Of a DNA stretch of 64,000 nt, positions 7,181 to 62,286 are shown one piece after another. How positions within the stretch are numbered: position 1 is the first letter of the stretch; each line of letters begins with the position of its first letter. The notes under the pieces are model-generated. The model did no database searches. It had not been told where the DNA came from and saw only the letters and a program-made list of their open reading frames with translations. The translations under genes were made by a program, and so were the position numbers. Origin of the DNA: an uncultured Alphaproteobacteria bacterium (GTDB lineage: Bacteria; Pseudomonadota; Alphaproteobacteria; Caulobacterales; Hyphomonadaceae); NCBI GenBank assembly GCA_903831255.1, contig CAIKWZ010000047.1, forward strand, positions 62,001-126,000. The letters run 5' to 3'.

Positions 7181-8452
7181 CTATTTCTTCAGAGCGTCAT
7201 AAATCCATGCCCTGTTCTTGCGCTGGTACTCCGCCAGCAAAGCACGATCCTGAATAAGGAAAATCATGAAGAGATCGTTCTTGGGATCGACCCAGAATTC
7301 AGTCCCGGCGATACCGTTCCAGGAAAACGTTCCATTTCCGGGACGCTGTCGGGTGTCATCAAGCACAAGGCTGAAGCCGAGCCCAAAGCCCATTCCGGGA
7401 CCCGGGAAGAAAAGTCCCTTTCCGCGTATCGCTGGGTCTGTCTGATCCACACGCATGGCGGCCAGCGTCTCCGGCTTAATGATGCGCACACCCTGGTACT
7501 CGCCATCTCCGGCAAGCATCAGAGTAAAGCGGAGATAATCCTCAGCGGTCGACGAGAGACCGCCGCCGCCGGACAGGAAGGGGGTCGCAGCGGCATAATC
7601 GTAGTATAAGCCGTCCTTGGTCTTCGACTCTGCGAAACGAGCGCGGTTGGCTTCGGGCTGAAAGAAAGCCGTATCCGTCATGCCCAATGGCCCCGTCACG
7701 CGCTCGCGTATCGCGACATCAAGCGATTGACCGCTCGCAACCTCAATCACCGCGCCGAGGATATCGGTCGAACGGGAGTAGTTCCACGCAACTCCCGGAT
7801 CCGCCTTCAGCGGCAGCGCCCCGATCAATTTGGCGTAATCCCGCGGGGAAAGATCCGATCGGTTCTCGCCACCCGCCGCATAAGCCTTGCCCAGGGCCGA
7901 TGCCGGCTCGATAAAGCCATAAATCAGACCCGAAGTATGGCTCATCAGATGACGAACGAGCATCGGCGAGGTGGACGGACGTTCGGATCCGTCGGCCTGA
8001 CGAACGCGCAAGTTCGAAAATTCAGGAAGATACTTCGAGACCGGATCATCGACGCTGAGCTTGCCTTCCTCAACCAGCGTCATGGCCGTCACGCTGACGA
8101 TCGGCTTGGTCATCGAGAAGATGCGAAAAATAGTCTCCTCAGTCATCGGGGTGGTCTGCCCGGGCCCCTGGACGCCGAAGCCTTTCTGGTACGCGACTTG
8201 CCCGTTTCGCCCGACGAGAAGGTACGCGCCGGGAATCTTGCCGCTCGCCACATCGCCTTCAAGAGCAGTCGTGATCTGACCAAGCTTGGCGGGGTCGAAC
8301 CCCAATGCGGCCGGATCGCCATTGACAATCGACGACTGAGCAGGATTGAGCCCAGGCTGAACAGAGGTCAACGCGCAACCGGAGAATGAGAGCGCGATAA
8401 CGAACGCCGTTCCTCCTGTCAGAAGCTGTCTGATCATTCGGTTCCCCGCCAT
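7181..8452 (-). CDS. Beta-lactamase-fold serine hydrolase (class C / esterase-like)
   Basis: Serine hydrolase of the beta-lactamase (PF00144) superfamily, a group that includes esterases, D-aminopeptidases and AmpC-like enzymes. The catalytic SxxK is SMTK at residues 113-116; the usual YxN position reads YSRS, as in many esterase-type members. A lipoprotein signal ends at FSGC. The start at 8452 is preceded by GGAGAG with good spacing; a longer frame to 8545 has no support and would spoil the signal. Length about 423 aa. Family membership does not imply antibiotic resistance, and the lack of a canonical YxN argues for esterase or peptidase activity. It diverges from the cytochrome gene at 8868 across a 415-base gap. 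Confidence 0.85.
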   Translation of the reverse strand: MAGNRMIRQLLTGGTAFVIALSFSGCALTSVQPGLNPAQSSIVNGDPAALGFDPAKLGQITTALEGDVASGKIPGAYLLVGRNGQVAYQKGFGVQGPGQTTPMTEETIFRIFSMTKPIVSVTAMTLVEEGKLSVDDPVSKYLPEFSNLRVRQADGSERPSTSPMLVRHLMSHTSGLIYGFIEPASALGKAYAAGGENRSDLSPRDYAKLIGALPLKADPGVAWNYSRSTDILGAVIEVASGQSLDVAIRERVTGPLGMTDTAFFQPEANRARFAESKTKDGLYYDYAAATPFLSGGGGLSSTAEDYLRFTLMLAGDGEYQGVRIIKPETLAAMRVDQTDPAIRGKGLFFPGPGMGFGLGFSLVLDDTRQRPGNGTFSWNGIAGTEFWVDPKNDLFMIFLIQDRALLAEYQRKNRAWIYDALKK

Positions 8453-8867
8453 GGTGTCTCTCCCTGATTCTCTTATTCGCGTCGGCGACAAAGACTCGCC
8501 CCACCCTGATAGTCCATCTCGAAGCGCCTCGCCAGTTGAACGCAAACGGGAGAAGACAGGCTAGGACCGAAGCGGAGGCCGAGTGAGCATGGCTGATGGA
8601 ACCGTGATCTGGATCAAGAGCGCTCCGCCCCCGAGCGGCGAGCACCGGATATTGCAAGTGTCAGCGGACATGGACCGCACCGAGGACCCAGCGTGCTCTT
8701 CAAGACGGTGAGATCTGGTCAAGTCCCTGTGACGGAAAAGAAGCGCTCTTGCGCCTGTCGACAAGAGGATTAGCCTTCCAGAAAGCGAAATGTCGTCAGG
8801 GAGAGCGATGAGGCTCGATTTTAGCCGATAGGCTCGCCGATCCGGCGATCAGAATGGGAAAAACACC
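8453..8867. other. Divergent intergenic region without a recognised gene
   Basis: A 415-base gap between the start of the beta-lactamase-fold gene (minus) and the cytochrome lipoprotein gene (plus). It must carry promoters for both directions. I see no convincing -35/-10 pair, operator palindrome, RNA gene or repeat; short open frames here lack a credible ribosome site. Confidence 0.5.
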
Positions 8868-9392
8868 ATGATAAAAGGCCGAACGAGGGTCGCACTGCTG
8901 GCGTCGGCGTTGATCGGGGGCGCTCTCAGCGGATGTGCTCCGTCGACTGAACCGCAGAAAGAAGACACTGCGCCGGCGGCTGGGGCTGAAGGCGCCTACC
9001 GCACTGAGCTGTCGATGGCTGAGCTTATGGCGCACGTTCTGGACCACGCAGCCGATGGGGTCTGGCTAAACCAGGGCTGGGTTGTTGACGATAAGGGAGA
9101 AAGAGAGCTCTTCCCGACGACCGAAGCAGGCTGGCTGGCTGCCGAGAACTCCGCGGCGACAGTTGCGGAAACCGCGAACCTTCTCCTCCTGCCGGGCCGG
9201 CGGGTGGACGATGAGCATTGGACCGATCACGCGCACGCCCTTCACAAAGCCTCTCTGGAGGCCATGAAAGCAGCAGAAGCACGGGACAAACAGGCTTTTT
9301 TTGACGCTGGCGGCGCGATGTACGTCGCCTGTCGGGACTGCCACCAGGAATACATTCTCGGTGAAGAACCGATGAGCGGGCCGCAACGCTGA
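8868..9392 (+). CDS. C-terminal-heme cytochrome c lipoprotein (class II-like)
   Basis: Small electron-transfer protein with one covalent heme. It has a lipoprotein signal ending SGC near residue 22, a helical body of about 120 residues and a single CxxCH (CRDCH, Cys155-His159) close to the C-terminus of the 174-residue chain. A C-terminal heme motif after an alpha-helical domain is the arrangement of class II cytochromes (c', c556), where the axial ligand Met would come from helix 1; Met residues at 'SMAELMAHVL' could serve. It heads a same-strand group with two membrane proteins (9545, 10256), which suggests it passes electrons to or from a membrane complex. That link is inferred from context only. 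Confidence 0.8.
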   Translation: MIKGRTRVALLASALIGGALSGCAPSTEPQKEDTAPAAGAEGAYRTELSMAELMAHVLDHAADGVWLNQGWVVDDKGERELFPTTEAGWLAAENSAATVAETANLLLLPGRRVDDEHWTDHAHALHKASLEAMKAAEARDKQAFFDAGGAMYVACRDCHQEYILGEEPMSGPQR

Positions 9393-9544
9393 GGGGAAAC
9401 CAACGACAGGAGACCCTCTATCCGGTTGAATTCTGGGGCGATCCTGTCGCATTGCCCCAGCGTTCTAGGGGGGCTTACCGTTACGATACGAATGAAGCTG
9501 ACGGGTAAACAATTGCCGCAGCGCCGCAGGGGAGGCTTGTAGAC

Positions 9545-10252
9545 GTGTTCCACGAATTTTTCAGATGGCTGCAGGAGGACCTCGGCTTCGACCCCGATCA
9601 GGGAGCCTCCTGGAGTCAGCAGTTTCTCGGATCATTCAATCTCTGGTCGATCCTTGAGGGAACGCATGTTCTGACCCTCATGCTGTTTGCCGGAACGATC
9701 TGGATTGTCGACCTGAGAATGCTTGGGGTGGCGTTCAAAAACGTCCCGTTCTCCAAGATCAACGAAAAGGTCCTGCCCTACACTGCGGTCGGCTTCGCCG
9801 CGATGCTCATTACGGGCTTCATCCTCTTCCTTGCCAAGCCGATGGACTACTATCACAACGTGTGGTTCAGGGCGAAAATCATCTTCCTCATCATCGCCTC
9901 GATCAACATCTTCTGGTTTCACCATAAGGTTCAGAAGAACCAGGAAGAATGGGACGCTAATCCCAACCCTCCCCTACCCGTGAAATTGTCTGCGGTCATT
10001 TCGATGACATCGTGGATTCTCATCATCATCTTTGGACGCTTTATCGCCTACAACTGGTTCGAGTGCGGCAAGCCTCAGCCGGCTTTCGTGAACGTTTTCG
10101 CGGAGTGCGCAACAACGTCATCTGGGATTGTCCGCGCAGACGCCATTCTCGAAGAAGGGCCAATTGAGAGCGCGCCTCTCGAAGCGGAGGCTCCATCCAC
10201 TGAGGAGGATGCCGAAAACGCGCCCGCCGCAGCTTCGGAAGAGGGGAATTGA
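9545..10252 (+). CDS. DUF6644-like multi-pass inner-membrane protein
   Basis: Integral membrane protein of unknown function. The segment 'EGTHVLTLMLFAGTIWIVDL' followed by RMLG matches the conserved first helix of DUF6644-type proteins (E/H pair followed by DLRLLG). Four or five hydrophobic helices are visible, with polar His residues near their ends (YYH, FHHK) that could bind heme or metal. The last 50 residues are acidic, Ala/Pro-rich and probably disordered. It precedes another protein of the same kind by three bases, so the two are translationally coupled and may form a heterodimer. The cytochrome lipoprotein gene lies just upstream. Role in electron transfer is an inference from the His residues and context. 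Confidence 0.7.
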   Translation: MFHEFFRWLQEDLGFDPDQGASWSQQFLGSFNLWSILEGTHVLTLMLFAGTIWIVDLRMLGVAFKNVPFSKINEKVLPYTAVGFAAMLITGFILFLAKPMDYYHNVWFRAKIIFLIIASINIFWFHHKVQKNQEEWDANPNPPLPVKLSAVISMTSWILIIIFGRFIAYNWFECGKPQPAFVNVFAECATTSSGIVRADAILEEGPIESAPLEAEAPSTEEDAENAPAAASEEGN

Positions 10253-10255
10253 ACC

Positions 10256-11089
10256 ATGGATTTCTATACGCTTTTTCCCAATCTCGAACCCTGGGTTCAG
10301 AACCTCGCCGGCGTCTGGCCGGCGTCAGTCATCAAACCATCAATCTGGATGTTTGCAGCGATTGAGGCCGTGCACTTGTTGACGCTGGGCCTCCTCGGAG
10401 GCTGCGTCATACTTCTCAATTTCAGGCTTCTGGGTATCGGTCTGACGAGCGAACCGGTGTCTGTCGTCGAGAAGAACCTGCGTCTCTGGCTCTGGGTCGG
10501 CGTCGGAGGAGTTCTTCTGACGGGCGTCGCCATCGGCATGTCGAACGCCGAAAAACTCTACACCAGCCCGGCCTTCTTCGTGAAAATGATCAGCCTTGCC
10601 GGAGGCCTTATCTTCTCCTTCGGCGTAACCAATGCGATCGCCCGATCTGAAGGCGCAATCTCCACCGGGACCAAAGTCGCAGCTGTCATAGCTTTCGTGC
10701 TTTGGCTTGCTTCGATCGGTGTTTTCGGCGCGGCGAACGGCGCGAACCCTGGCACGGTGCATCTCGTCTGCGCAGGCTACGCAATACTCTTCGCCTTCGG
10801 AACGAAGACGCCTAAGATCATCGCTGCAGCCTCCCTCGCCTGCCTCGTACTTGTCGGCTGGATTCTGACCTATGGTGTCTGGAACGTCTGGGACAATTAT
10901 GAGACCGTCACTCAGATCAATATCTGGTTTGTCAGGGCAGCCGCCGTCATTCTCGTCGGACTTCTGGGATTTGAAATCTTCACATCCCGCTCGACGGAGA
11001 CTTCGCCGGTCGTAAAGCTCGTAGCTCTGTTCTCGATCCTGTCCTGGGTCACGATCGCAGCTGCAGGCAGGTGGATCGGTCTGAGCTGA
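10256..11089 (+). CDS. Second DUF6644-like membrane protein
   Basis: A 277-residue membrane protein with about seven hydrophobic helices. Its first conserved helix (AIEAVHLLTLGLLGG followed by NFRLLG) aligns with that of the preceding gene, including the Glu-x-x-His pair, so the two are diverged paralogs. It lacks the acidic tail of its neighbour and is longer by two to three helices. It starts three bases after the neighbour's stop codon and is followed by a strong intrinsic terminator, so the cytochrome and the two membrane proteins form one transcription unit. Function unknown; a two-subunit membrane complex receiving electrons from the cytochrome is plausible but unproven. Confidence 0.7.
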   Translation: MDFYTLFPNLEPWVQNLAGVWPASVIKPSIWMFAAIEAVHLLTLGLLGGCVILLNFRLLGIGLTSEPVSVVEKNLRLWLWVGVGGVLLTGVAIGMSNAEKLYTSPAFFVKMISLAGGLIFSFGVTNAIARSEGAISTGTKVAAVIAFVLWLASIGVFGAANGANPGTVHLVCAGYAILFAFGTKTPKIIAAASLACLVLVGWILTYGVWNVWDNYETVTQINIWFVRAAAVILVGLLGFEIFTSRSTETSPVVKLVALFSILSWVTIAAAGRWIGLS

Positions 11090-11116
11090 ACGAACTCACT
11101 TTTCTTCCCAGCAAGA

Positions 11117-11149
11117 AGCCCCTCCCGGTGAACCGGGAGGGGCTTTTTT
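11117..11149 (+). terminator. Rho-independent terminator
   Basis: A perfect 12-bp GC-rich stem (11117-11128 with 11133-11144) closes a four-base TGAA loop and is followed by a run of six T. It lies 28 bases after the stop of the second DUF6644-like gene and ends the cytochrome operon. Confidence 0.92.
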
Positions 11150-11176
11150 GACGACCACGTATGGATGTCTGGGATG

Positions 11177-12205
11177 CTATTCCGCATCACCCGCGACAAC
11201 AGTTTTTCGTCCCAGGCGCTCGTCCTGCCGGGCCCCTGCGAGGATGCCGGGAAGCGAGTAATTGCCTTCATGACAGGCATACTCATAGATCTTGGCCGGA
11301 GTTGCGTTGAGAGACATCTCGGCTCGCCACGGTTGCGTGAAAGCGGTCGGATCCTCGACAGTAAACTCGTAATGGATCGTTCCTTCGGCAACGCGCGTAA
11401 AACGTTCAACAACCTTGGCCCGGTCTCCGAGAAAAAACGACTGATCCATGTTCGGTCGAAGAGCGATATCGGGATGAAAGTTGACCGTCTCGACGACGAG
11501 AGTATCGCCCTCCCACCAACCGATGGAGTCTCCAAGCCACTTCCGAAACGAGTCCGGCGCGTGCTTGCCGTTGATGGGAATGACCCTCGCGTCGTGGTTC
11601 ATCTCGACCATGATGACGACATGATCGGGCGTCTGAACAATCTGATAGTGATTGTTATAAAGGACGTTGACCATTGGCGGCCCACCGGTTGAACCGAATC
11701 CGACAATGCAGCGTTCGCCTTGTGGTCGGATCTCGGGACCATCGAACGTTCCCCGCACCCGTGCCAGCCGCGCATCGTAGGTCTTGCGACCAGTTTCTGA
11801 GTAAGGGATGCGTCCATCCTGAGGCTCGACGATCCACGAGGTGCGACGCTCACCCTTCACAAGTCCGTAGGTCGTACCGGGGTCGATCCAGAACGCATTA
11901 TAACCACCGACATCCTGCCCAGCCCGAGGCGCGCCGTCTGTGGGATTAGTGGCGCTGTTCTGGGCAGCCATCATCCGTGCGCGTTGCCCTTCAGCCCGAA
12001 GGGCCTGTTCTTCAGAGATAACGGGACCCTTGACCGAGCGCGGCCGCTCAAGCGGCGTGAGGCTGGCGTTGGTCCAGACGCCTTGAAGATCCGGACGCCC
12101 ATCAGGGGTGCGGGGAGGCGCATATGTGGCCTGAGCCTGAACGCTGCCGAGACAAACAGAGAAGGCAAGGCCCGTCAGAACGCACCCAAATAGATTCATC
12201 TTCAT
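11177..12205 (-). CDS. Exported 'PDLxGVW' family protein, function unknown
   Basis: A secreted protein with a Sec signal peptide (cleavage near VQA-QA) and the hallmark RTPDGRPDLQGVW at the mature N-terminus. Its most conserved block is GFGSTGGPPM...NNHYQIVQTPDHVVI and EMNHDARVIPI, followed by GWWEGDTLVVET and VERFTR; this block looks beta-rich. I know such proteins only as hypothetical proteins in proteobacteria and acidobacteria, with no characterised member. ATG 12205 was chosen for the AGGAGAG site upstream; the frame extends to 12262 without such support. The neighbouring gene at 12272 is a close paralog (tandem duplication) and a more distant one lies at 14352. The single late Cys pair (GERC, EYACHEG) is conserved in the paralog. 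Confidence 0.75.
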   Translation of the reverse strand: MKMNLFGCVLTGLAFSVCLGSVQAQATYAPPRTPDGRPDLQGVWTNASLTPLERPRSVKGPVISEEQALRAEGQRARMMAAQNSATNPTDGAPRAGQDVGGYNAFWIDPGTTYGLVKGERRTSWIVEPQDGRIPYSETGRKTYDARLARVRGTFDGPEIRPQGERCIVGFGSTGGPPMVNVLYNNHYQIVQTPDHVVIMVEMNHDARVIPINGKHAPDSFRKWLGDSIGWWEGDTLVVETVNFHPDIALRPNMDQSFFLGDRAKVVERFTRVAEGTIHYEFTVEDPTAFTQPWRAEMSLNATPAKIYEYACHEGNYSLPGILAGARQDERLGRKTVVAGDAE

Positions 12206-12271
12206 TCTCTCTCTCCTCATCCTCGTCTCGATACAGCCCCGAACAATCGGCATCAGCGACACCTGAAAGCG

Positions 12272-13330
12272 TTACTCTCCATCGCTGTCGACCCGGGTTA
12301 GAACGCCTCGCCGTTCGTCGGCTCGCGCACCCGCCAGAATTCCCGGAAGAGAATAGTTCCCTTCATGGCAGGCGTACTCGTAAACCGCTCCCGAGGCTCG
12401 GGTCATGACCATCTCAGCCCGCCAGACGCGAGAGAAGATCTTAGGATCGTCGACAGAGAACTCATAAAGGATCTCTCCGTCCGCCACGCGCGTAAAACGC
12501 TCGGTAATCCGAGCGTCCGGAGAGATATAAAACGTGATCCCCGTGTTGGTGCGAAGACTCTCCTGAGGATGCATGTTCACCGTCTCGACCACGAGGGTCT
12601 CCCCCTCCCACCACCCTATGGAGTCTCCCATCCACGGCCGGATTGCATCACTGCGATGGGCGCGACCTATAGGGATCACCCTCGCGTCGTGATTCATCTC
12701 CACGAGGATCACCACATGGTCAGGCGTCTGAACGATCTGGTAGTGGTTATTGTAAAGGACGTTCATCATCGGAGGACCGCCGGTAGAACCAAAACCGACA
12801 ACGCACCGTTCTCCGAGAGGACGGATTTCCGGCCCGTCGAACGTGGTGCGACGTCTCGTAAGATCCGCCTCATAGATCGCCCGCCCCTCCGGGGTGTAAG
12901 GGAGACGCCCATCGGGCGGATCGACCACCCACGATGTCCGGATTTCGCCTTTAACAACAGCCATTCTGGATCCGCTGTCGATGTAGACATTGTTGTAACC
13001 GCCCACATCCCGTCCTTTAGGCGGAGCCCCGGTTGTCGGATCGGTCGGCCGCGCTCCGGCCGCGGTTCTCTCGGCCGTGCGCCTGGCGATGGAGTCCGCC
13101 TCTTCGGGGGTGAGCGTCGCCCCCTTGAACTGAGAGCCCCTTTCAAGGGTTGTGAGCGAGGTATTGGTCCATACCCCTTGAAGATCTGGGCGGCCATCGG
13201 GCGTTCGAGGCGCCGTCCATGAGGAAGCACCCTGCGCATGGGAGGAAAGCCCCCCCGTAGCAACGCTCATCAGACACGCTAAAGCAGTCATTGCCCGAGC
13301 TACCGCCCCGGTTCGCAGCATCTTGATCAT
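12272..13330 (-). CDS. Exported 'PDLxGVW' family protein, tandem paralog
   Basis: A 352-residue secreted protein that aligns end to end with the product of 11177-12205. It shares RTPDGRPDLQGVWTN, the GFGSTGGPPM/NNHYQIVQTPDHVVI core, GWWEGETLVVETVN and the C-terminal YEYACHEGNYSLPGILAGAR. A signal peptide with cleavage near SHA-QG precedes the family domain. A GGGGAGGAG site lies upstream of 13330. It precedes its paralog by 66 bases on the same strand, so they are probably co-transcribed. Divergence is spread along the protein and concentrated before the core, which fits an old duplication. No enzyme motif is recognised; the conserved His, Asp and Arg residues in the core could form an active site. 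Confidence 0.75.
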   Translation of the reverse strand: MIKMLRTGAVARAMTALACLMSVATGGLSSHAQGASSWTAPRTPDGRPDLQGVWTNTSLTTLERGSQFKGATLTPEEADSIARRTAERTAAGARPTDPTTGAPPKGRDVGGYNNVYIDSGSRMAVVKGEIRTSWVVDPPDGRLPYTPEGRAIYEADLTRRRTTFDGPEIRPLGERCVVGFGSTGGPPMMNVLYNNHYQIVQTPDHVVILVEMNHDARVIPIGRAHRSDAIRPWMGDSIGWWEGETLVVETVNMHPQESLRTNTGITFYISPDARITERFTRVADGEILYEFSVDDPKIFSRVWRAEMVMTRASGAVYEYACHEGNYSLPGILAGARADERRGVLTRVDSDGE

Positions 13331-13416
13331 GATAGGCGCTCCTCCCCTGATCGCGCGGATACTTCGACCCTTAGCGATCGTAAGGCTCCGGTGTCTGAAG
13401 GAACCCCGAACCCTTT

Positions 13417-13452
13417 AAAAAAAACCGCCGCCTGCAATCCTGCAGGCGGCGG
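13417..13452 (-). terminator. Rho-independent terminator of the DUF6152 gene
   Basis: On the minus strand, a 12-bp perfect GC-rich stem (13425-13436 with 13441-13452) with a four-base loop is followed by eight T residues. It lies 40 bases beyond the stop of the DUF6152 gene and separates it from the PDLxGVW pair. Confidence 0.92.
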
Positions 13453-13492
13453 TCCTGTTCCACAGTCACTGGACCTGATGAGGTCAAAGACC

Positions 13493-14020
13493 TCAGGCCG
13501 CGCCAGCCGCGCACTTGGAGGCCTGACCGCCTTCAGAGGAGTCAGAACCATCGCGCGGAGCGCCAGTTCCCGACGAGCCGACGAAGAGCTTACAGCCGTT
13601 GGGGAACGTCACGTCTCGCCCATTGGCCTTGCAGGTCTTCACTTTCGTCTTGGCGTGGGTCTCGCAAAGAGCGTCCTTGGACTGATAACCGCGCACAACG
13701 ACTTCAGTTCCGACAGGCAGCGAGGACTTGTTGATGCCGGTCCGCAGGAGAGTGTTAGGCGTGCCGCCCTCCACAGCCCAGTTGAACATCGTTCCCTGAG
13801 CAGCCTTGCCCTTTGCGTCTGTATTCGGAACGTTGATGTGGATCCAGGTATGCGGATTAACCCACTCAACGGTCACCACTTTTCCCTTGAGAAGCACCGG
13901 AGCGTTCGCATCGAACTCCGCCGCGAAGGCATGGTGCGCATACGCTGCAGACCCCACGCCCACTGCCCCCACCAGGGGAAGAACCGCCGCCATCAAGGCG
14001 AAACGCATTTTCTTGTTCAT
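13493..14020 (-). CDS. DUF6152 family secreted protein
   Basis: A 175-residue exported protein with a signal peptide ending AYA, directly followed by the family signature HHAFAAEFD. The rest follows the DUF6152 pattern: a small beta-barrel-like domain with LKGKVVTVEWVNPHTWIHINV, a Trp-x-Val-Glu strand, and PVGTEVVVRGYQS. The N-terminal His-His of the mature chain could bind metal. This member has a Cys-containing C-terminal extension of about 45 residues (CETH, KTCKAN, NGCKL, SKCAAG) that would form disulfides outside the cytoplasm. An AGGAGGA site supports ATG 14020. It has its own terminator. DUF6152 genes have no assigned function; here it sits among the PDLxGVW paralogs. Confidence 0.8.
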   Translation of the reverse strand: MNKKMRFALMAAVLPLVGAVGVGSAAYAHHAFAAEFDANAPVLLKGKVVTVEWVNPHTWIHINVPNTDAKGKAAQGTMFNWAVEGGTPNTLLRTGINKSSLPVGTEVVVRGYQSKDALCETHAKTKVKTCKANGRDVTFPNGCKLFVGSSGTGAPRDGSDSSEGGQASKCAAGAA

Positions 14021-14310
14021 CTGACTTCCTCCTGCACTCGCCAGGGGTGCCCCTCTGACGCCGCTGATTGCCGACCTCTCCCTACCCGGGTTCAAACCCG
14101 AATGCCGGGAGGCCTTTTCCTGCTACTTAATAATCAAGAGATCCCGATATCAAGTAGACCACCTCATCAAACTTCAGTCTTTGTCCCGCCCGGTTGAGTG
14201 CCTGAGATGGCGCTCTTCCAAGTATCAGACTAGCCGAGCCCCAGACTTCCTTCGATCCGCAAAAAACAGTCAGGAAGGTCACGACTTCGTCAAGTCGACG
14301 GGTTCCAAGC
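14021..14310. other. Intergenic region without a recognised gene
   Basis: About 290 bases upstream of the DUF6152 gene (minus). It is AT-richer than its surroundings around 14120-14160 and should hold that gene's promoter. I see no RNA gene or clear repeat. Confidence 0.4.
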
Positions 14311-14342
14311 AAAACCGCCAGGCCGGTTACCCGACCTGGCGG
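14311..14342 (-). terminator. Probable rho-independent terminator
   Basis: On the minus strand an 8-bp stem (CCGCCAGG at 14315-14322 pairing with CCTGGCGG at 14335-14342) with a 12-base loop, itself partly self-complementary, is followed by TTTTGCTT. It begins 9 bases beyond the stop of the lipoprotein gene ending at 14352. Confidence 0.75.
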
Positions 14343-14351
14343 ATCGCCTCG

Positions 14352-15272
14352 TTATTCAAGCGGCTGCTTGCTCTTTTCGAGCGCAGGCCCGGGAAGAGGG
14401 CTCGCCCGCAGGTGCCCGTACATCAGTTCCTCAACGAACTCGACGCACTTGAACTGCTGAAGCTGGGCGTCTTCTCCCACACGACGATAGAGATTATAGG
14501 CGATTTTCCAGGGCTTCGTGTAGGTTTCCGGATCCTCGATGGTCGCCTCGTACCGCATCGTATTCGCGCTGGTAGGCGTGTAGCGTTCCACCACTTTTGT
14601 GGTCGAACCATGATGGTTGCCCGCCCGGTCCAGCCAGGTGTCCGACAACAGTCCGGTCACTTCGACAACAAACGTATCGCCTTCCCAGCGACCGAAAGAC
14701 TGCCCCATCCAGCTGTCGATCGGAGCCTCACCCGGATCATCCAGGAAGACGTTCCGAACAGCGCCCGCATATTCGTAGGCGAAGAACACAGCCTTATCAG
14801 AATGGAAGATCTGGAAGGGGTAGGGCATGTAATTGGCGCGCGGAACGCCCGGAAGGTAGCACTTGATTTCAGGATCGCGATTGATCCAGTCGGCCTTGTT
14901 TTCATCACGCAGAGCCAGAGCCTCGGCGGTATACGGGATCTTCCCGTCGCCCTGAACGATGCCAACGCCGGCCGGGACCGCCCCGACGGCGCCCAAAGCC
15001 ACGACGCGGGCGTCAGGAACCGGAACATAGGGACCAGGGCGCAGCTGCATGGCCGCGCTCGCAGGATGAGCCTCAATATTGAAATTAGCGGTGTTGAGCA
15101 CCTGCCAGACCCCGTTCAGGTCCGGGTGCTTGCCGTCAGGCCCCCTGGGGGCGACATACGCCGCAGCTGCAGCGGGAGCTGCAGCAGCCTGAGTGGCCGC
15201 TCCTTCAGTCGGCGCGGTCTGACACCCCGCCAGCGCGACTCCCAGAACCAGTGTAGAAACAAGCTTCTTCAT
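14352..15272 (-). CDS. PDLxGVW-family lipoprotein, distant paralog
   Basis: A 306-residue lipoprotein (signal MKKLVSTLVLGVALAGC) followed by an Ala-rich linker and the family motif RGPDGKHPDLNGVW. It keeps the overall layout of the 11177 and 12272 proteins: a beta-rich core with YPFQIFHSDKAVFFAYEY, SFGRWEGDTFVVEVTGL, KVVERYTP, and a C-terminal FKCVEFVEE in place of YACHEGNY. Sequence identity to them is low outside these motifs. ATG 15272 has a GGGGAGGAG site immediately upstream; the frame continues to 15296 without need. It is a single-gene unit with a terminator on its 3' side. Function unknown. Confidence 0.72.
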   Translation of the reverse strand: MKKLVSTLVLGVALAGCQTAPTEGAATQAAAAPAAAAAYVAPRGPDGKHPDLNGVWQVLNTANFNIEAHPASAAMQLRPGPYVPVPDARVVALGAVGAVPAGVGIVQGDGKIPYTAEALALRDENKADWINRDPEIKCYLPGVPRANYMPYPFQIFHSDKAVFFAYEYAGAVRNVFLDDPGEAPIDSWMGQSFGRWEGDTFVVEVTGLLSDTWLDRAGNHHGSTTKVVERYTPTSANTMRYEATIEDPETYTKPWKIAYNLYRRVGEDAQLQQFKCVEFVEELMYGHLRASPLPGPALEKSKQPLE

Positions 15273-15415
15273 AACTCCTCCCCGTACGCCCAACACTTAT
15301 GACCTGTCCCCGTTCTAGGACCTACCGCTGCCGCCTTCTGATTTGCTTGGCGGCGAGCGATACGAACGGGATGAAGCGCGAAGGGCCGACGCTGCGGTAA
15401 GGAACATACCGACCT

Positions 15416-21101: not shown

Positions 21102-21752
21102 TCAGCTGACAGGGAACATACGACCGCCGCCAGCAGGCGAATCGACGGAGCCGCTGGCGGCGCGGGATCGGGCTCGGCCGGAAATGTCTTTGATCTGGTG
21201 CTCCTCGAGGAGCCGTCGCCCCATTCCAGGGGTCAGCCAGGCGCCTCGCCCGATCGTCGGCAGAGGCAGTCCCATCGCGGCCACCAGGGTTGCGAAAGCG
21301 GAATTGGAATTGAGACCGAGCCCAAGAAACGGATAGGGCGCCCCTCCTCCGCCGGCCGGACCAGGGCTGCGGGAGTTGATCCGCCTCATGGCCTCTCTTG
21401 CGGCCGAGATGAATGATTCCAGAGCGGAGGTGTCGAGTTTCTCGGCGATGATCGCCGCCTCGCCCTTTTTGACGACCTCCAAAAGCCCAGACCCGCCTCT
21501 CGTCGCACCATGGATTGCGAGAGCCGTGTAGGGGTGATCGGCGGTATCGTAAATTCTCAGCCGGTCCGACGGCAGGAAACCGATGGGCTTACATCGCCAG
21601 TCTCCACCGTCAGGATCAAGGCTCGAAGCCAGACCGTTGAACTGTCGGACGCATCGCCCCAGACCGTCCGCCACGGCGAGCACGCGATGAGCGGCGATAG
21701 CCGTCCCGCTCGGAAGTCGGTGCTCAGCCCCAATGATCATCCAGTCCGACAT
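21102..21752 (-). CDS. Hypothetical protein with NSNS motif
   Basis: I do not recognise this 216-residue protein. It has no signal peptide or membrane segment. The N-terminal half has a strand-like HRVLAVADGLGRCVRQFNGLA segment; the C-terminal half contains GLGLNSNSAFATLVAAMGL and GAWLTPGMGR, a layout loosely like the Asn-Ser-Asn motif seen in some papain-like or DUF3750-type proteins. The tail after residue 195 is Gly/Ser/Arg-rich and probably disordered. The frame has normal codon-position bias on the minus strand and lies between convergent and divergent neighbours without overlap, so I take it as real. It stands alone, diverging from the first PQQ dehydrogenase gene. Confidence 0.6.
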   Translation of the reverse strand: MSDWMIIGAEHRLPSGTAIAAHRVLAVADGLGRCVRQFNGLASSLDPDGGDWRCKPIGFLPSDRLRIYDTADHPYTALAIHGATRGGSGLLEVVKKGEAAIIAEKLDTSALESFISAAREAMRRINSRSPGPAGGGGAPYPFLGLGLNSNSAFATLVAAMGLPLPTIGRGAWLTPGMGRRLLEEHQIKDISGRARSRAASGSVDSPAGGGRMFPVS

Positions 21753-21903: not shown

Positions 21904-23910
21904 ATGGCTTCAGAATTGGCGATGTCCGCGACGCGATCGACGCTTGGTGCGCTCATGATGGCGGCTACGGCTCTGAGCCTTTCAGCCTGCCAATCGCCCG
22001 ATAGCGCTGCTCTAGGCGCCCCTCCCTCGCAGGTGGCCGCGGCTGAACCCGCCCCCCGTCCAGCCGAACCCGTTTCAGTTTCATTGTCTGACACGCCTCA
22101 CCCGGGCGAGGCGATTTACAACACGAACTGCGCCGCATGCCATGATAACGCAGAAGCCACTCGCTCTCCGTCCAGAGAAACGCTGGGCAAGATGAGCTTC
22201 CAGTTGATCAATTACGCACTCACCATGGGAAAGATGCAGGTTCAGGGACAGGCCCTGAGTGACGACAAGCGTGCGACCCTCATCAACTATCTGATTGGTC
22301 GAAGCGCGTCGGCGGGCGACGGCTGGACTCAGTCGATGATGTGCCCGTCCGGACGCAGGAAGATTTCTCTCGACGGCGGCGCGAAAGTATCGACCTTCGG
22401 CTTCGACAGATCGAACACTCGCTCCCTCACAGAAGCGCAGGCGGGATTGTCGCGTTCTCAGCTCGCCAATCTGGAGCTCGCATGGTCGCTCGCCATCCCG
22501 GACGCCACCACTATGAGATCGCAGGGCGCGATTGTCGGAAATACTCTTTTCCTGCCAGTGGCGGACGCCTCGGCGATGTACGCCATCGATATCTCCGGGC
22601 GTCAGCCGTGCATCCAGTGGATTTACCGGACACCCGGCGGAGCTCCCCTCCGAACCAGCGCCGCCTATGGCGTGATCGCAGACGGGACGCCCCTTTTGGT
22701 CTTCTCCGGCCTCGATTCAACTGTTCATGCCGTTGATGCAAGAACAGGCAAGGCAGTGTGGACAAAAGGTGTCGGCAGCTTCCGCTTTTCCCTGACAACC
22801 GGGACGCCGACAGTGTTGCGGGATCGGATCATCGTGCCCGTCGCACAATACGAGATCTCTGTCGCAGCGGCCAATGAGGAGCTTTGCTGCACCAATCATG
22901 GCTATGTTCTGTCCCTTGATGCAAAAACGGGAGAGCAGACATGGCGCTACGACACGATGTCAGATGCAATGCCTGTCAGAGACCGCGGAGACGGAAAAAT
23001 GCTCTGGGGCCCATCAGGCGCCCCCATCTGGAACTCTCCGGTCGTGGATGAGAAGCGACGACTGGTCTACTTCGGAACCGGCGAAGCAAACTCCGCCCCG
23101 ACGCACCGAAACACCAACGCCATCATCGCCATTCATCTGGACACCGGTCGCGAAGTCTGGAGCCATCAGGCGACCGACCGCGATATCTTCCTTTCTGGAT
23201 GTGGACCGCGCCCCGGTCCGGACAAGCTCAACTGCGAAACTGACACGGTCTACCGGGATGTAGACTTCGGAGCGTCGGTCATACTCGGAAAGCTGAAATC
23301 CGGACGGGAGGTTCTGTTCGCAGGACAGAAATCCGGCACCGTCTGGGCGCTGGAGCCGGACACTGGAAAAGTGATCTTTCAGCGAGACATCGGAACGGGC
23401 GGACCGCTGGGCGGCATTCACTGGGGTATCGCATTCGCTGACGATACGATTTACGCGCCGATCAGCAATCCGGGCCGCTCGCTTCCGGGACAACCGCCCC
23501 TCGACCCAAGCATCAAAGCTGGCGTCTATGCGGTGGATGCGGAGACAGGCGCCATCAAGTGGAGATTCACCCCGACGCCAGAGTGCGGCGGACTGTCGCC
23601 TGCCGAAGCACGGGTGTGCGCACGTGGCGCAGCCTTCTCAGGCGCGCCCACGGTCATTGGCGAAACGCTGGTGTCAGGAACCCTCAACGGCGATCTTTAT
23701 GTTCTGGACCGAAAGACCGGCGAGCCGATCTGGAAGACAAGCACGATGAAATCCTACACGGCCACCAACGGAATAAACGGTCAGGGGGGCGCAATCGACG
23801 GAGCCTCGATTGTGGCCTCAAACGGACTGCTTTTTGTTAACTCTGGATACGGGATGTTCGGTCAGCAGGCCGGGAACATGATCCTGGCATTCAGACCGGC
23901 CCCAAACTGA
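21904..23910 (+). CDS. PQQ-dependent quinoprotein dehydrogenase with N-terminal cytochrome c (PVA-dehydrogenase-like), lipoprotein
   Basis: Predicted periplasmic oxidoreductase that oxidises an alcohol with PQQ and passes electrons to its own heme. Residues 1-29 are a lipoprotein signal (LSAC). A cytochrome c domain follows with CAACH (Cys76-His80), then a PQQ beta-propeller from about residue 170. PQQ-site features include a vicinal cysteine pair (ELCCTNHG), WGPSGAPIWNSP and repeated Trp-docking strands such as DAKTGEQTWRYD and DRKTGEPIWK. The order cytochrome then propeller is that of polyvinyl-alcohol dehydrogenase and opposite to type II quinohemoprotein alcohol dehydrogenases. A GGGGAG site precedes ATG 21904. 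The next gene encodes a paralog. No PQQ biosynthesis gene lies in the window. Substrate unknown. Confidence 0.85.
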   Translation: MASELAMSATRSTLGALMMAATALSLSACQSPDSAALGAPPSQVAAAEPAPRPAEPVSVSLSDTPHPGEAIYNTNCAACHDNAEATRSPSRETLGKMSFQLINYALTMGKMQVQGQALSDDKRATLINYLIGRSASAGDGWTQSMMCPSGRRKISLDGGAKVSTFGFDRSNTRSLTEAQAGLSRSQLANLELAWSLAIPDATTMRSQGAIVGNTLFLPVADASAMYAIDISGRQPCIQWIYRTPGGAPLRTSAAYGVIADGTPLLVFSGLDSTVHAVDARTGKAVWTKGVGSFRFSLTTGTPTVLRDRIIVPVAQYEISVAAANEELCCTNHGYVLSLDAKTGEQTWRYDTMSDAMPVRDRGDGKMLWGPSGAPIWNSPVVDEKRRLVYFGTGEANSAPTHRNTNAIIAIHLDTGREVWSHQATDRDIFLSGCGPRPGPDKLNCETDTVYRDVDFGASVILGKLKSGREVLFAGQKSGTVWALEPDTGKVIFQRDIGTGGPLGGIHWGIAFADDTIYAPISNPGRSLPGQPPLDPSIKAGVYAVDAETGAIKWRFTPTPECGGLSPAEARVCARGAAFSGAPTVIGETLVSGTLNGDLYVLDRKTGEPIWKTSTMKSYTATNGINGQGGAIDGASIVASNGLLFVNSGYGMFGQQAGNMILAFRPAPN

Positions 23911-24056
23911 GCCGCTCAACTTGACGTGAACAGGGTCTGAAGAGCTGACCTAGGGGCATGAGTTGACGTTTGCGTCAGGTAGGGTTGACTATACTTCTGA
24001 AGATACGGGCGCCCCGACACGAAACGACGGGGAAAAGACACGAAGGAGAAGCGACG

Positions 24057-26030
24057 ATGCGGCGACATAACCAGCGTGACCGATCCACCCTGAGGTCCGA
24101 AACGAAGCGCCCTGGCGTAGCTGCGATCTTCGCGATGGCTGCGGGCTTCGCCCTTGCCGGGTGTTCGACAAGCGACGCGCCCGCCCAACAGGCCGCAACG
24201 ACGGTTGCAGCCACAACGCCTCAGCCCCACCCGGGCGAAGCCGTCTACAAGGCGAGCTGCGCGAGCTGCCACGACAACGCGGAACTGACCAAGGCGCCGA
24301 CCCTCGAAAGTCTCGCCCGCCTCAATTCAGGCCAGATCGTGAACACGCTGATTACTGGCAGGATGGCCCCTCAGGCAGCGAGCCTGACCTCAGAGCAGGT
24401 GACGTTCGTCGCCGACTATCTCTCAAAAGCCGAAGAAGTCGACGACAGCTGGGTGTCGGCGATGATGTGCCCGAGCAACCGTCGCACCCCAAAGCTGGCA
24501 TCCGCGCCGACTGTGTCGACCTTTGGGTTCGATCTCAAGAACTCTCGCCGCCTGACCTACGCTCAGGCTGGTCTCGACGTGACGGACATGACCAATCTGG
24601 AAGTCGCGTGGGTTGTCGGTTTCCCCGACGCAATCACGATGAGATCCCAGGCGGCGGTCGCCGGATCGACTATTTTCCTGCCTGTTGGCGAACATAAGAA
24701 CCGCCTGTTCGCATTCGATATTTCTTCCGAAAAGCCTTGCATACAGTGGATCTACGAAGCCGAACGCACGCTTCGCACCAGCGCTGGATTTGGAACCCTT
24801 CCCGACGGCCGGAAGGCGGTCGTAGTCGGCGACCTCGGCGCTTACGTCCACATGATCGATGCAAAGACGGGCAAGCGTATCTGGGCCTCGCACATGGGGC
24901 TCTTCCCTGCCTCGGTTTCAACGGCGACACCCGTCATCGTGGGAGACAAGGTATTCGCGCCCTCTTCCCAGTACGAGATCATGATGGGCTCGGTCGACAG
25001 CCATGTCTGCTGCAAGACCCATGGCGGCGTCGTCGCTCTTGACGCCATGACCGGAAAGCGGGTGTGGGAAGGCCACACGATGGAAGACGCCAAGCCGGTC
25101 CGCGATCGGGGCGACGGCCAGATGATATGGGGCCCCTCTGGAGCGCCGATCTGGAATTCCCCCTCGATCGACCTGAAGCGCAACCGCCTTTATGTCGGAA
25201 CAGGGGAAGCAACCTCTCCGCCTGCACACAAGAACTCGGACGCCCTGATGGCGTTCGATCTCTCCGACGGGTCGGTGAAGTGGGCCCATCAGGCGACCGC
25301 GAATGATATCTTCGTCGTCGGCTGTCAGCCCGGATCTAAAGGCAAGAACTGCGTCTCGGCATCGGAGACAGTCTATCGCGACGTAGACTTCGGAGCCTCG
25401 ACGATCCTCGCATCGACCCCTGCCGGCCGCGACCTTGTGCTTGCGGGCCAGAAATCAGGAACGGTGTGGGCGATGGATCCGGACAGCGGATCGGTCGTAT
25501 GGCGAACCGATATCGGTACGGGCGGCCCGAATGGTGGCATTCACTGGGGCATTGCTGCCGATGATACGCACGTCTTTGCCCCCATCAGCTATGCGGGCCG
25601 ATCAATTCCGGGCCAGGCCGTCCCCGAGACCATCAAACCGGGACTTTACGCCCTCGATCTGAATGACGGATCCATCGACTGGTCCTTCCACGCGACCCAG
25701 GACTGTACGGACGCCCGTAAGAAGTTTGTGCCGCGCTGCAACTCGCTCTTTGGTCTGTCGGGAGCGCCCACGATTATCGGGGATCACGTTGTGACCGGAG
25801 GGCTCGACGGACGAGTTTACATGTTCGAGCGAAAAACCGGTAAACTGGTCTGGCAATTCGACACCGCGCAGGACTTCACGACCGTCAACGGCGTCAAGGC
25901 CAATGGGGCTTCGGTCGACAACGCTTCGATCATCGCCACGAACGGACTGCTCATCATGAATTCAGGCTATGGCCTCTTCGGTCAGGGTGCTGGAAACGTG
26001 ATGATCGCCTTCAGGCCTCGCAAGAACTGA
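24057..26030 (+). CDS. Second PQQ quinoprotein with N-terminal cytochrome c, lipoprotein paralog
   Basis: A 657-residue paralog of the 21904-23910 product with the same plan. It has a lipoprotein signal after a basic start (ALAGC), a cytochrome c domain with CASCH (Cys68-His72), a MMCPSNRR linker also seen in the paralog (MMCPSGRR), and a PQQ propeller with vicinal cysteines (SHVCCKTHGG), WGPSGAPIWNSP and GTGGPNGGIHWGIA. ATG 24057 was chosen for its GAAGGAGAA ribosome site; the frame opens at 23970 but the extension has none. The 146-base gap from the first gene allows an internal promoter, so the two may be expressed separately. Two copies suggest different substrate ranges or a heterodimer. 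Confidence 0.85.
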   Translation: MRRHNQRDRSTLRSETKRPGVAAIFAMAAGFALAGCSTSDAPAQQAATTVAATTPQPHPGEAVYKASCASCHDNAELTKAPTLESLARLNSGQIVNTLITGRMAPQAASLTSEQVTFVADYLSKAEEVDDSWVSAMMCPSNRRTPKLASAPTVSTFGFDLKNSRRLTYAQAGLDVTDMTNLEVAWVVGFPDAITMRSQAAVAGSTIFLPVGEHKNRLFAFDISSEKPCIQWIYEAERTLRTSAGFGTLPDGRKAVVVGDLGAYVHMIDAKTGKRIWASHMGLFPASVSTATPVIVGDKVFAPSSQYEIMMGSVDSHVCCKTHGGVVALDAMTGKRVWEGHTMEDAKPVRDRGDGQMIWGPSGAPIWNSPSIDLKRNRLYVGTGEATSPPAHKNSDALMAFDLSDGSVKWAHQATANDIFVVGCQPGSKGKNCVSASETVYRDVDFGASTILASTPAGRDLVLAGQKSGTVWAMDPDSGSVVWRTDIGTGGPNGGIHWGIAADDTHVFAPISYAGRSIPGQAVPETIKPGLYALDLNDGSIDWSFHATQDCTDARKKFVPRCNSLFGLSGAPTIIGDHVVTGGLDGRVYMFERKTGKLVWQFDTAQDFTTVNGVKANGASVDNASIIATNGLLIMNSGYGLFGQGAGNVMIAFRPRKN

Positions 26031-61287: not shown

Positions 61288-62286
61288 TCAGAGCTTCGGC
61301 AGGTTGTTGATCGAGACAGAGTTTCCGATCGCAGCAGCCGTCGCCGAGACCGAACCGGTCACGTCGCCGAGGTGAATGTTGGCGGTCGCCTCGGTGTAGG
61401 CGCCGTTCATTTGCGTCGTGTTGACGTTGAGCGAAGCCGTGGCGGGCAGCGTCGAAACGCTGAGTGAGTTGGCGATCGCAGCCGTCGTGGAGTTCACGTC
61501 GCCGGTCACTTTACCCATCTGCAGGTTGGTCAGAGCGGTCGGGTCATAAGACATGAACTGCGTGTTGTTGATGTTGACCGTCTTGGAGTCGGTGGTCTCG
61601 AAAGAAGCCGAGTTACCGATCGCCGCCGAGGTCAGCGTCACGTCGCCGACGACATCGTTGACCTTCGCATTGAGCACCGAGCGAACGTCGCCGTTGAAGC
61701 GCTGGAAGTTGTTGGCGTTGAGGTCGCCCTTGACGTTGACCGACAGGGAGTTCGCGATTGCCGCCGAGGTAGCGGAAATGGCGGTGACGGAGTCAGATCC
61801 GGGAGCCTTCACGCCCGAGATGTTGGACGCATCAACGTTGAGGTCGGACTTGATGACCTGGGTCGTAGCGCCAGTCAGCTGGGTGGAGTTGACGAGCGAA
61901 TTGCCGCTCGTGCTTCCGCCGGCGAGGGCGTCGATTTCCACCGAAGCGGAGTTACCGATGGCGGCGGCGGTCATGGTGAGCGAGCCGACCGTGTCGCTGG
62001 CCTTGACGTTGAGGTTGGCGAGAGCGTTTGACACGTTGGTCTGCGAGGAATTGACCGTGGAGTTGCCGCCGAGCGAAGCGGAGAAGGAGTTGCCGATGGA
62101 GGCCGACGTCATCGCCACGTCTTCAGTGACTTTCGACACCTGGGCGTTGATCGTCGCACGGGTCTCAGCCCAGTTCTGCTGATTGTTGTTGACCGTGTTC
62201 ACTTTGGCCTGGGCGAACGCCGCAGGAGCGCAGGAAAGCAGGAGAACGGTGGCGAGGCCGACAAATTTAGGAGTAGAGGAGCGCAT
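61288..62286 (-). CDS. hfaD: Secreted six-repeat curlin-like protein, probable holdfast anchor HfaD
   Basis: A 332-residue exported protein with signal peptide (AFA-QA). It contains six copies of the A-x-I-G/A-N-S motif at residues 63-67, 109-113, 176-180, 222-226, 270-274 and 319-323. Spacing is 46-49 residues with one of 67, and the first five copies are followed 15-23 residues later by a Gln in N/S-x-x-Q-type strands (NSTQ, NNTQ, NTTQ). Between repeats sits a V-x-G-D/S-V strand. This regular Asn/Gln/Ser/Thr ladder is the hallmark of beta-helical, amyloid-like curlin relatives. HfaA carries one copy of the same unit, and HfaB is the matching export pore. I call it HfaD on these grounds. ATG 62286 has a GGACAGG site. 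It is convergent with hfaAB rather than downstream of it. Confidence 0.6.
   Translation of the reverse strand: MRSSTPKFVGLATVLLLSCAPAAFAQAKVNTVNNNQQNWAETRATINAQVSKVTEDVAMTSASIGNSFSASLGGNSTVNSSQTNVSNALANLNVKASDTVGSLTMTAAAIGNSASVEIDALAGGSTSGNSLVNSTQLTGATTQVIKSDLNVDASNISGVKAPGSDSVTAISATSAAIANSLSVNVKGDLNANNFQRFNGDVRSVLNAKVNDVVGDVTLTSAAIGNSASFETTDSKTVNINNTQFMSYDPTALTNLQMGKVTGDVNSTTAAIANSLSVSTLPATASLNVNTTQMNGAYTEATANIHLGDVTGSVSATAAAIGNSVSINNLPKL

Follow-up and report, generated by a model that had tools for sequence, protein, structure and literature searches.

Why should genes for a cytochrome, two DUF6644 membrane proteins, a DUF6152 protein and three exported proteins carrying a PDLxGVW motif lie side by side in the genome of an uncultured member of the Hyphomonadaceae? 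The genes occupy positions 8868–15296 of the window, by which we mean the whole 64,000-nucleotide stretch of DNA that was analysed (positions 62,001–126,000 of contig CAIKWZ010000047.1, assembly GCA_903831255.1). Comparison with other genomes showed that the gene set is found again in bacteria only distantly related to this one. We take the interval to be one form of a conserved envelope module that appears to move laterally, and the pair DUF6152 and DUF6644 to be its most persistent core. A sequence-only reading of the same DNA had proposed a periplasmic redox or substrate-processing role, which fits the parts. It had overlooked the free-standing DUF6152–DUF6644 pair and the invariant His-His at the predicted mature N-terminus of DUF6152; this putative metal signature and the separable two-gene core are what is new here.

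The proteins are referred to as C (cytochrome), M1 and M2 (DUF6644), P-A, P-B and P-C (PDLxGVW proteins), D (DUF6152), and Q1 and Q2 (quinohemoproteins); G numbers denote genomes (G000 being the source genome), g numbers genera and L numbers loci. The interval contains the following features.

8868–9392, + strand: C, a lipoprotein of 174 residues, class II (c'-like) cytochrome; CxxCH at 9330–9344
9545–10252, + strand: M1, DUF6644 membrane protein with four hydrophobic segments by hydropathy (PF20349, E 8e-12)
10256–11089, + strand: M2, DUF6644 membrane protein (PF20349, E 9e-18, in two stretches); invariant His40 at codon 10373–10375
11177–12262, − strand: P-A, exported PDLxGVW barrel protein of the long subfamily, from the family alignment and family model
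12272–13330, − strand: P-B, exported PDLxGVW barrel protein of the long subfamily, chosen for structure modelling (AlphaFold2; predicted local distance difference test score, pLDDT, 87.9)
13493–14020, − strand: D, DUF6152 (PF19649, E 6e-29); likely start Met at 14020 in a frame that opens at 14095
13936–13931, − strand: predicted mature His1-His2 of D; the His codon of its Pro-His29 is at 13852–13850, − strand
14352–15296, − strand: P-C, lipoprotein of the short PDLxGVW subfamily, from a weak lipoprotein signal and similarity to P

These seven open reading frames (ORFs) are consecutive, as the view of the locus as one cluster had it, although they do not form one operon: C, M1 and M2 on the + strand converge on P-C, D, P-B and P-A (in transcription order) on the − strand. 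The Pfam matches to DUF6152 and DUF6644 exceed the cut-off of 27 bits, at 100.6, 46 and 65.3 bits, and together with the pairwise identities of the P proteins they bear out the proposed make-up of paired DUF6644, one DUF6152 and three PDLxGVW proteins that are related to one another. All seven products have a lipobox, a hydrophobic start resembling a signal (judged by eye) or transmembrane (TM) segments, in agreement with their description as exported or membrane proteins; the start codon of D was also picked by eye. A scan for sigma-70-like promoters found none where 2.0 were expected, and terminator-like sites numbered 15 against 6.6 expected, the longest stem lying at 14342–14315 on the − strand.

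The association of the families was examined by searching the same 61 genomes of the source family three times, for DUF6152, DUF6644 and P. D was found in 26, M in 25 and P in 25 of them; the P and M genome sets are identical, and the D set consists of those genomes and G059, where the match is weak. The corresponding Fisher values are 3e-16 for D with M and 1e-17 for P with M, uncorrected for relatedness. D and M lie on one contig, 273–3707 bp apart, in 20 of the 25 genomes, convergently in 19 and divergently in G014; they are on separate contigs in G021, G045, G051, G057 and G060. Neighbourhood had been set beforehand as the ground on which the association of these families might fail, and both the co-occurrence and the proximity of D and M uphold it. 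G034 alone among the sampled members of genus g4 carries P and M. Its P genes number exactly two and its M genes two, with a single D, and all of them sit at one site that also includes Q, C, a HupE/UreJ-like permease gene and a small membrane protein, X. We read this isolated, complete set as the acquisition of a whole block. Plasmid records gave three weak matches each for P and for D, all from sphingomonads.

The module extends well beyond the source family. Gene order was compared in 80 named loci fetched by similarity to P. The order short P–long P–D–C–M–M is found in the SAR86-type loci L066, L068, L070, L071, L073, L078, L086 and L091 (the last M of L070 being interrupted by the contig end), so that the subfamily of P-C opens these blocks; M and C are inverted relative to it in L115, an acidobacterial metagenome-assembled genome (MAG), and other loci show further layouts. 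A phylum sample of 150 genomes, separate from the family set, contained D in 15 and M in 10, and all 10 genomes with M also had D. Of 23 places outside the source genome where D occurs, 11 have M and 10 have P no further than 1.5 kb away; 20 have one or the other, leaving three (L166, L182 and L185) with neither. A bare two-gene D–M unit with varying neighbours is present in 7 of 16 stretches examined (L261–L267), and gene calling left the pair incompletely resolved in L259, L260 and L268. The occurrence of the pair alone in several genomes argues against its being a mere accessory to the quinoproteins. The 45 D-bearing loci counted below are a biased set, 24 having been fetched through P and 20 through the position of D and M, plus the window; the presence of P in all 45 is therefore no evidence of association, and the independent tests are the family genomes and the D places.

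What might the core do? In all 79 matches to D (71 unique sequences), the residue just before His-His is Ala, Ser or Gly, the last of a hydrophobic stretch; among the unique sequences, position −1 is Ala in 60, Gly in 7 and Ser in 4. His1, His2, Pro28 and His29 are the sole fully invariant residues in all 71, the distant HHGW and HHS subfamilies included. By sequence rules for cleavage, the first residue of each of the 71 would be His, as in N-terminal-histidine metalloproteins, and the mature secreted chain of D most likely begins His-His. This predicted start points to metal binding. Cu- or Ni-binding proteins with an N-terminal His were described in 2025 (PMC12537917), and in two kinds of them the protein is fused to a HupE/UreJ-2 permease; the passages concerned name DUF4198, DUF6702, Ang-1 and Ang-2 and do not include DUF6152.

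The partner protein also keeps a histidine. All 24 M1 and all 24 M2 sequences compared have a His close to where the first helix begins. The Glu-x-x-His motif noted in the first helix is present in both M proteins of the window; across homologues only its His is invariant, Gln replacing Glu in some M2 (L073, for example). In M1 the conserved residues are His41 (codon 9665–9667) and His126; the second conserved His of M1, after TM3, is found in 95%. Positive residues come after TM1; under the positive-inside rule, the invariant His would then lie close to the outer face. Profile comparison with hhalign gave probabilities of 81% for M with HemJ, 65% for HemJ with CopD, 15–25% for M with CopD and 0.2% for a control of M with HupE; an earlier, narrower HemJ set gave 17–77% for M with HemJ. 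The remote likeness of DUF6644 to HemJ is thus moderate; HemJ reportedly has heme b, going by the title of a 2018 study by Skotnicova. Membership of either family was rejected: the best match of an M protein to UPF0093 (M1 of L066) scores 21.3 bits against a cut-off of 34.2, and there is no PF05425 match to place M in CopD. Window M2 is itself enlarged: it has 277 residues, about seven hydrophobic segments and, in addition, a partial second match to DUF6644, against 157–160 residues in SAR86.

Some modules include a second type of membrane protein. HupE/UreJ_2 permeases, assigned by Pfam in L050 and by similarity elsewhere, occur in 12 of the 45 D-bearing loci and always with X. In all 12 the predicted mature start is a His located 25 residues before GAKHM, a 25-residue His-tail with no separate anglerase-like domain (L122:6811–7542, L134:8044–8793 and ten more). 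N-terminal-His domains on HupE/UreJ-2 permeases bind Cu, according to passages of PMC12537917. In the DNA covered at L050, L053 and L087 a HupE gene is present and M is not, so that in these three incomplete stretches HupE and M may be exchangeable partners of D. X is a small membrane-anchored protein with no Pfam match, encoded beside the HupE-type gene in 12/12 loci (L122:7514–8104, L050:5850–6482 and ten more); by eye, it keeps DMH and GxHG motifs. Residue conservation across the X set, in which one member may be wrong, was left out of account.

Two further components are heme proteins: C, within the interval, and Q, encoded outside it.

21904–23910, + strand: Q1, quinohemoprotein with an N-terminal cytochrome c domain and a pyrroloquinoline quinone (PQQ)-type propeller
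23970–26030, + strand: Q2, a second quinohemoprotein of the same family, 47% identical to Q1

The interval had been said to hold one heme protein, and C is indeed its single CxxCH protein; the quinoproteins at 21904–26030 have cytochrome domains as well. Window C matches PF01322 below the cut-off (E 0.0018; 19.7 against 26.5 bits), and a profile of 12 C homologues matches solved cytochromes c' with a best E of 8e-5. The homologues share the class II arrangement of a C-terminal CxxCH on a c'-like helix and an N-terminal Met, with Met54, Cys155, Cys158 and His159 invariant (set A5); we take the Met to have the role that it has in other class II cytochromes. The link that had been drawn to the quinoproteins is supported elsewhere. 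Q lies directly beside C or M in the SAR86 loci L073, L078 and L091 and in L051, L122, L129, L134 and L141; in L273 and L274 it is flanked by P and M, and in the window it lies 6.6 kb from P-C. In total it is found in 19 of the 45 D-bearing loci, some low-scoring propellers being counted. Q may resemble polyvinyl alcohol dehydrogenase. An Asp-x-Asp (D452 and D454), carried by both Q1 and Q2, is present in 26 of 28 Q homologues, the other two having gaps, and was placed on the catalytic and metal-binding Asp299/Asp301 of XoxF by hand alignment, as the profile alignment stops before that site; the XoxF motif includes the lanthanide ligand Asp301 (passages of PMC11845868). Q1 and Q2 may be lanthanide-type enzymes; since the Asn ligand of the metal site is not kept, this is only a lead.

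Other genes adjoin these blocks. A beta-lactamase-fold serine hydrolase, not part of the core, neighbours 13 of the 45 D-bearing loci, and its copy in the window is as follows.

7181–8545, − strand: beta-lactamase-fold serine hydrolase (PF00144, E 1e-71)

An ORF at 21102–21752 (216 residues) has no Pfam match at E<=0.001, and related ORFs lie close to four further D-bearing loci in the genus. L051:10277–12439, adjoining the module there, encodes a single protein that unites redoxin with a CxxCH domain and also matches copper type II monooxygenases below threshold.

The three P proteins gave no Pfam or NCBIfam domain match; for P-C, a lipoprotein signal and a TrbH model matched below threshold. 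Their proposed expansion by duplication holds for P-A and P-B, a tandem pair with 59% identity, and not for P-C, which belongs to a distant, shorter subfamily (25% identity to P-B) and is no local duplicate. Likewise, the core read as GGPPM/HYQIVQTPDHVV in all three is found in P-A and P-B, whereas P-C reads GVPR...PFQIFHSDKAV; the WEGDTxVVE strand is kept by all three, with E for D in P-B. The model of P-B is an antiparallel barrel whose best matches are fatty-acid-binding proteins (FABPs), at a Foldseek E of 2e-3 with none below 0.001 and a TM-score by target below 0.5; superposition on an FABP by VIA gave Z 9.0 and a root-mean-square deviation of 3.0 over 115 residues. PDLxGVW lies on the first barrel strand of the model, with G16 in 100% and W18 in 94% of 58 rows, and two Cys are invariant across these rows. 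A GxW motif marks the first strand of calycins, so the modelled P is calycin-like in both its up-and-down barrel and its GxW first strand. A sequence search of the PDB with P returned nothing at E<=1, and a viral structure library no match at E<=0.001. The source genome (3.3 Mb) has 19 P genes (20 matches, two being pieces of one frame; loci including L009–L025), whose nearest relatives are in Phenylobacterium MAGs. The family is strongly amplified in g1, the genus of the source genome, with 15–39 matches per genome against 2–6 in G034 and g3.

We tentatively favour the view that D and M are a metal-capture and membrane-relay pair, sometimes joined by HupE, that in larger modules serves a quinoprotein/cytochrome oxidation system. 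Secreted D, starting His-His, would bind a transition metal, most likely copper, through its free amine and imidazoles, possibly with Pro-His. M1 and M2 would receive or hold this metal at the membrane through the invariant first-helix His. In the larger versions, the pair would serve a periplasmic oxidation system in which a lipophilic molecule, substrate or product, is bound by the P barrels and oxidised by Q, the electrons leaving through Q's own heme and C; the metal's identity, its transfer from D to M, the substrate and the electron order are what we infer here. A number of observations weigh against this scheme. Metal binding by D is predicted from a sequence signature, and the cleavage sites themselves follow from sequence rules. 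The structure model of D, of modest quality (pLDDT 71.8), is an oligonucleotide/oligosaccharide-binding (OB)-type barrel that places H1/H2 and H29 at opposite ends of the long first strand; known copper proteins with an N-terminal His have beta-sandwich folds instead. The fold matches of D are OB-type domains (PriB, SSB, tRNA synthetase domains and superantigen N-domains), which we read as a common fold and not as function; no CopC or lytic polysaccharide monooxygenase (LPMO) chain is among the matches listed, an absence that counts against neither, and a PDB sequence search with D gave chance-level matches only. The likeness of M to CopD is low, at 15%. The window's own module has no HupE, and a third DUF6644 gene of the source genome (G000:C33:119108–119497, L040) has no D in the 17 kb examined. 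Finally, module presence tracks genera (15/15 genomes in g1, 7/7 in g3), so that independent events are far fewer than the genome counts.

The chief rival, close to the sequence-only reading, makes M1 and M2 heme b proteins: with the heme on the first-helix His, they would pass electrons between the quinone pool and Q/C, D being an accessory or stabilising subunit. The invariance of that His in all 48 M sequences and the adjoining heme proteins C and Q are consistent with such a membrane cytochrome, and heme binding, which the remote HemJ homology would suggest, keeps this rival live. We nevertheless consider it rather unlikely: M1's second conserved His would be on the opposite face from the first if the positive-inside rule holds, bare D–M units have no cytochrome or quinoprotein alongside, and the His-His start of D is left unaccounted for. 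The same two features, D–M without Q, C or P and the invariant predicted His-His, make it unlikely that the locus is a plain oxidation cluster, in which Q, C and P oxidise and carry a lipophilic compound and D and M are quinoprotein assembly or sensing factors with no transition-metal role, even though the frequency of Q at D-bearing loci, the FABP-like model of P and the many P genes of g1, which suggest varied ligands, would suit it. It seems very improbable that D founds a new class of N-terminal-histidine copper redox enzyme, of histidine-brace type on an OB-type fold, drawing its electrons from Q and C to oxidise a lipophilic substrate bound to P, with copper or electrons supplied at the membrane by DUF6644. 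D has the N-terminal His and a further invariant His, and LPMOs are known to be fed by a PQQ dehydrogenase that has a cytochrome domain (passages of PMC6472588); yet the modelled fold of D differs from that of LPMOs, related N-terminal-His proteins have little activity (passages of PMC12537917), and bare D–M units contain no electron donor. That unrelated envelope genes lie together here by chance, or as a purely local arrangement, is scarcely credible. Within g1 there is further shared synteny, an FtsX-type permease adjoining the block in 8/45 loci, but the same gene set recurs in differing orders and orientations across classes and phyla, and the isolated block of G034 already contradicts it.

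A search of the open-access literature found no publication on DUF6152 or DUF6644. Overall, these two families and the large exported P family, for which Pfam and NCBIfam offer no model, all without known function, are joined here into one testable system that spans alphaproteobacteria, SAR86 and other gammaproteobacteria, and acidobacteria. If D does bind copper through its mature N-terminus, the D–M pair would be a new periplasmic route of metal acquisition or metalation, with a fold novel for that role, and the P family a large new group of periplasmic binding barrels.

The putative metal-capture and relay pair has its nearest counterparts in the N-terminal-histidine 'anglerases' DUF4198, DUF6702 and HupE/UreJ-2, as presented in passages of PMC12537917. 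Common to both are a secreted chain with an invariant His after the signal peptide and a membrane permease partner, HupE/UreJ_2 itself joining the module of D in some loci. D differs in being a separate soluble protein that starts His-His and is modelled as an OB-type fold and not a beta-sandwich, in having DUF6644 as its main partner, and in its links to quinoproteins, a cytochrome and P barrels. In CopC–CopD and YcnI–YcnJ copper uptake (passages of PMC12362106), a periplasmic N-terminal-His copper protein likewise works with a membrane protein of several helices; the modelled fold of D is different, M is nearer to HemJ than to CopD, and a copper role of D–M would be by analogy. HemJ (UPF0093, PgdH2) is a four-helix membrane protein whose invariant first-helix His aligns with that of M, whereas M falls below the family cut-off and sits in an envelope module, a separate HemJ existing in the source genome. 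Quinohemoprotein alcohol dehydrogenases and XoxF share with Q the combination of cytochrome domain and PQQ-type propeller and, in most Q homologues, the Glu or Asp, Lys and Asp-x-Asp; in Q the heme domain is N-terminal, the vicinal Cys are placed elsewhere and, by hand alignment, the metal-site Asn is not kept. Fatty-acid-binding proteins and other calycins have the antiparallel barrel opened by a GxW strand that is modelled for P, from which P is set apart by its export, its length of ~300 residues with long insertions, its two invariant Cys and its lack of a PDB sequence match.

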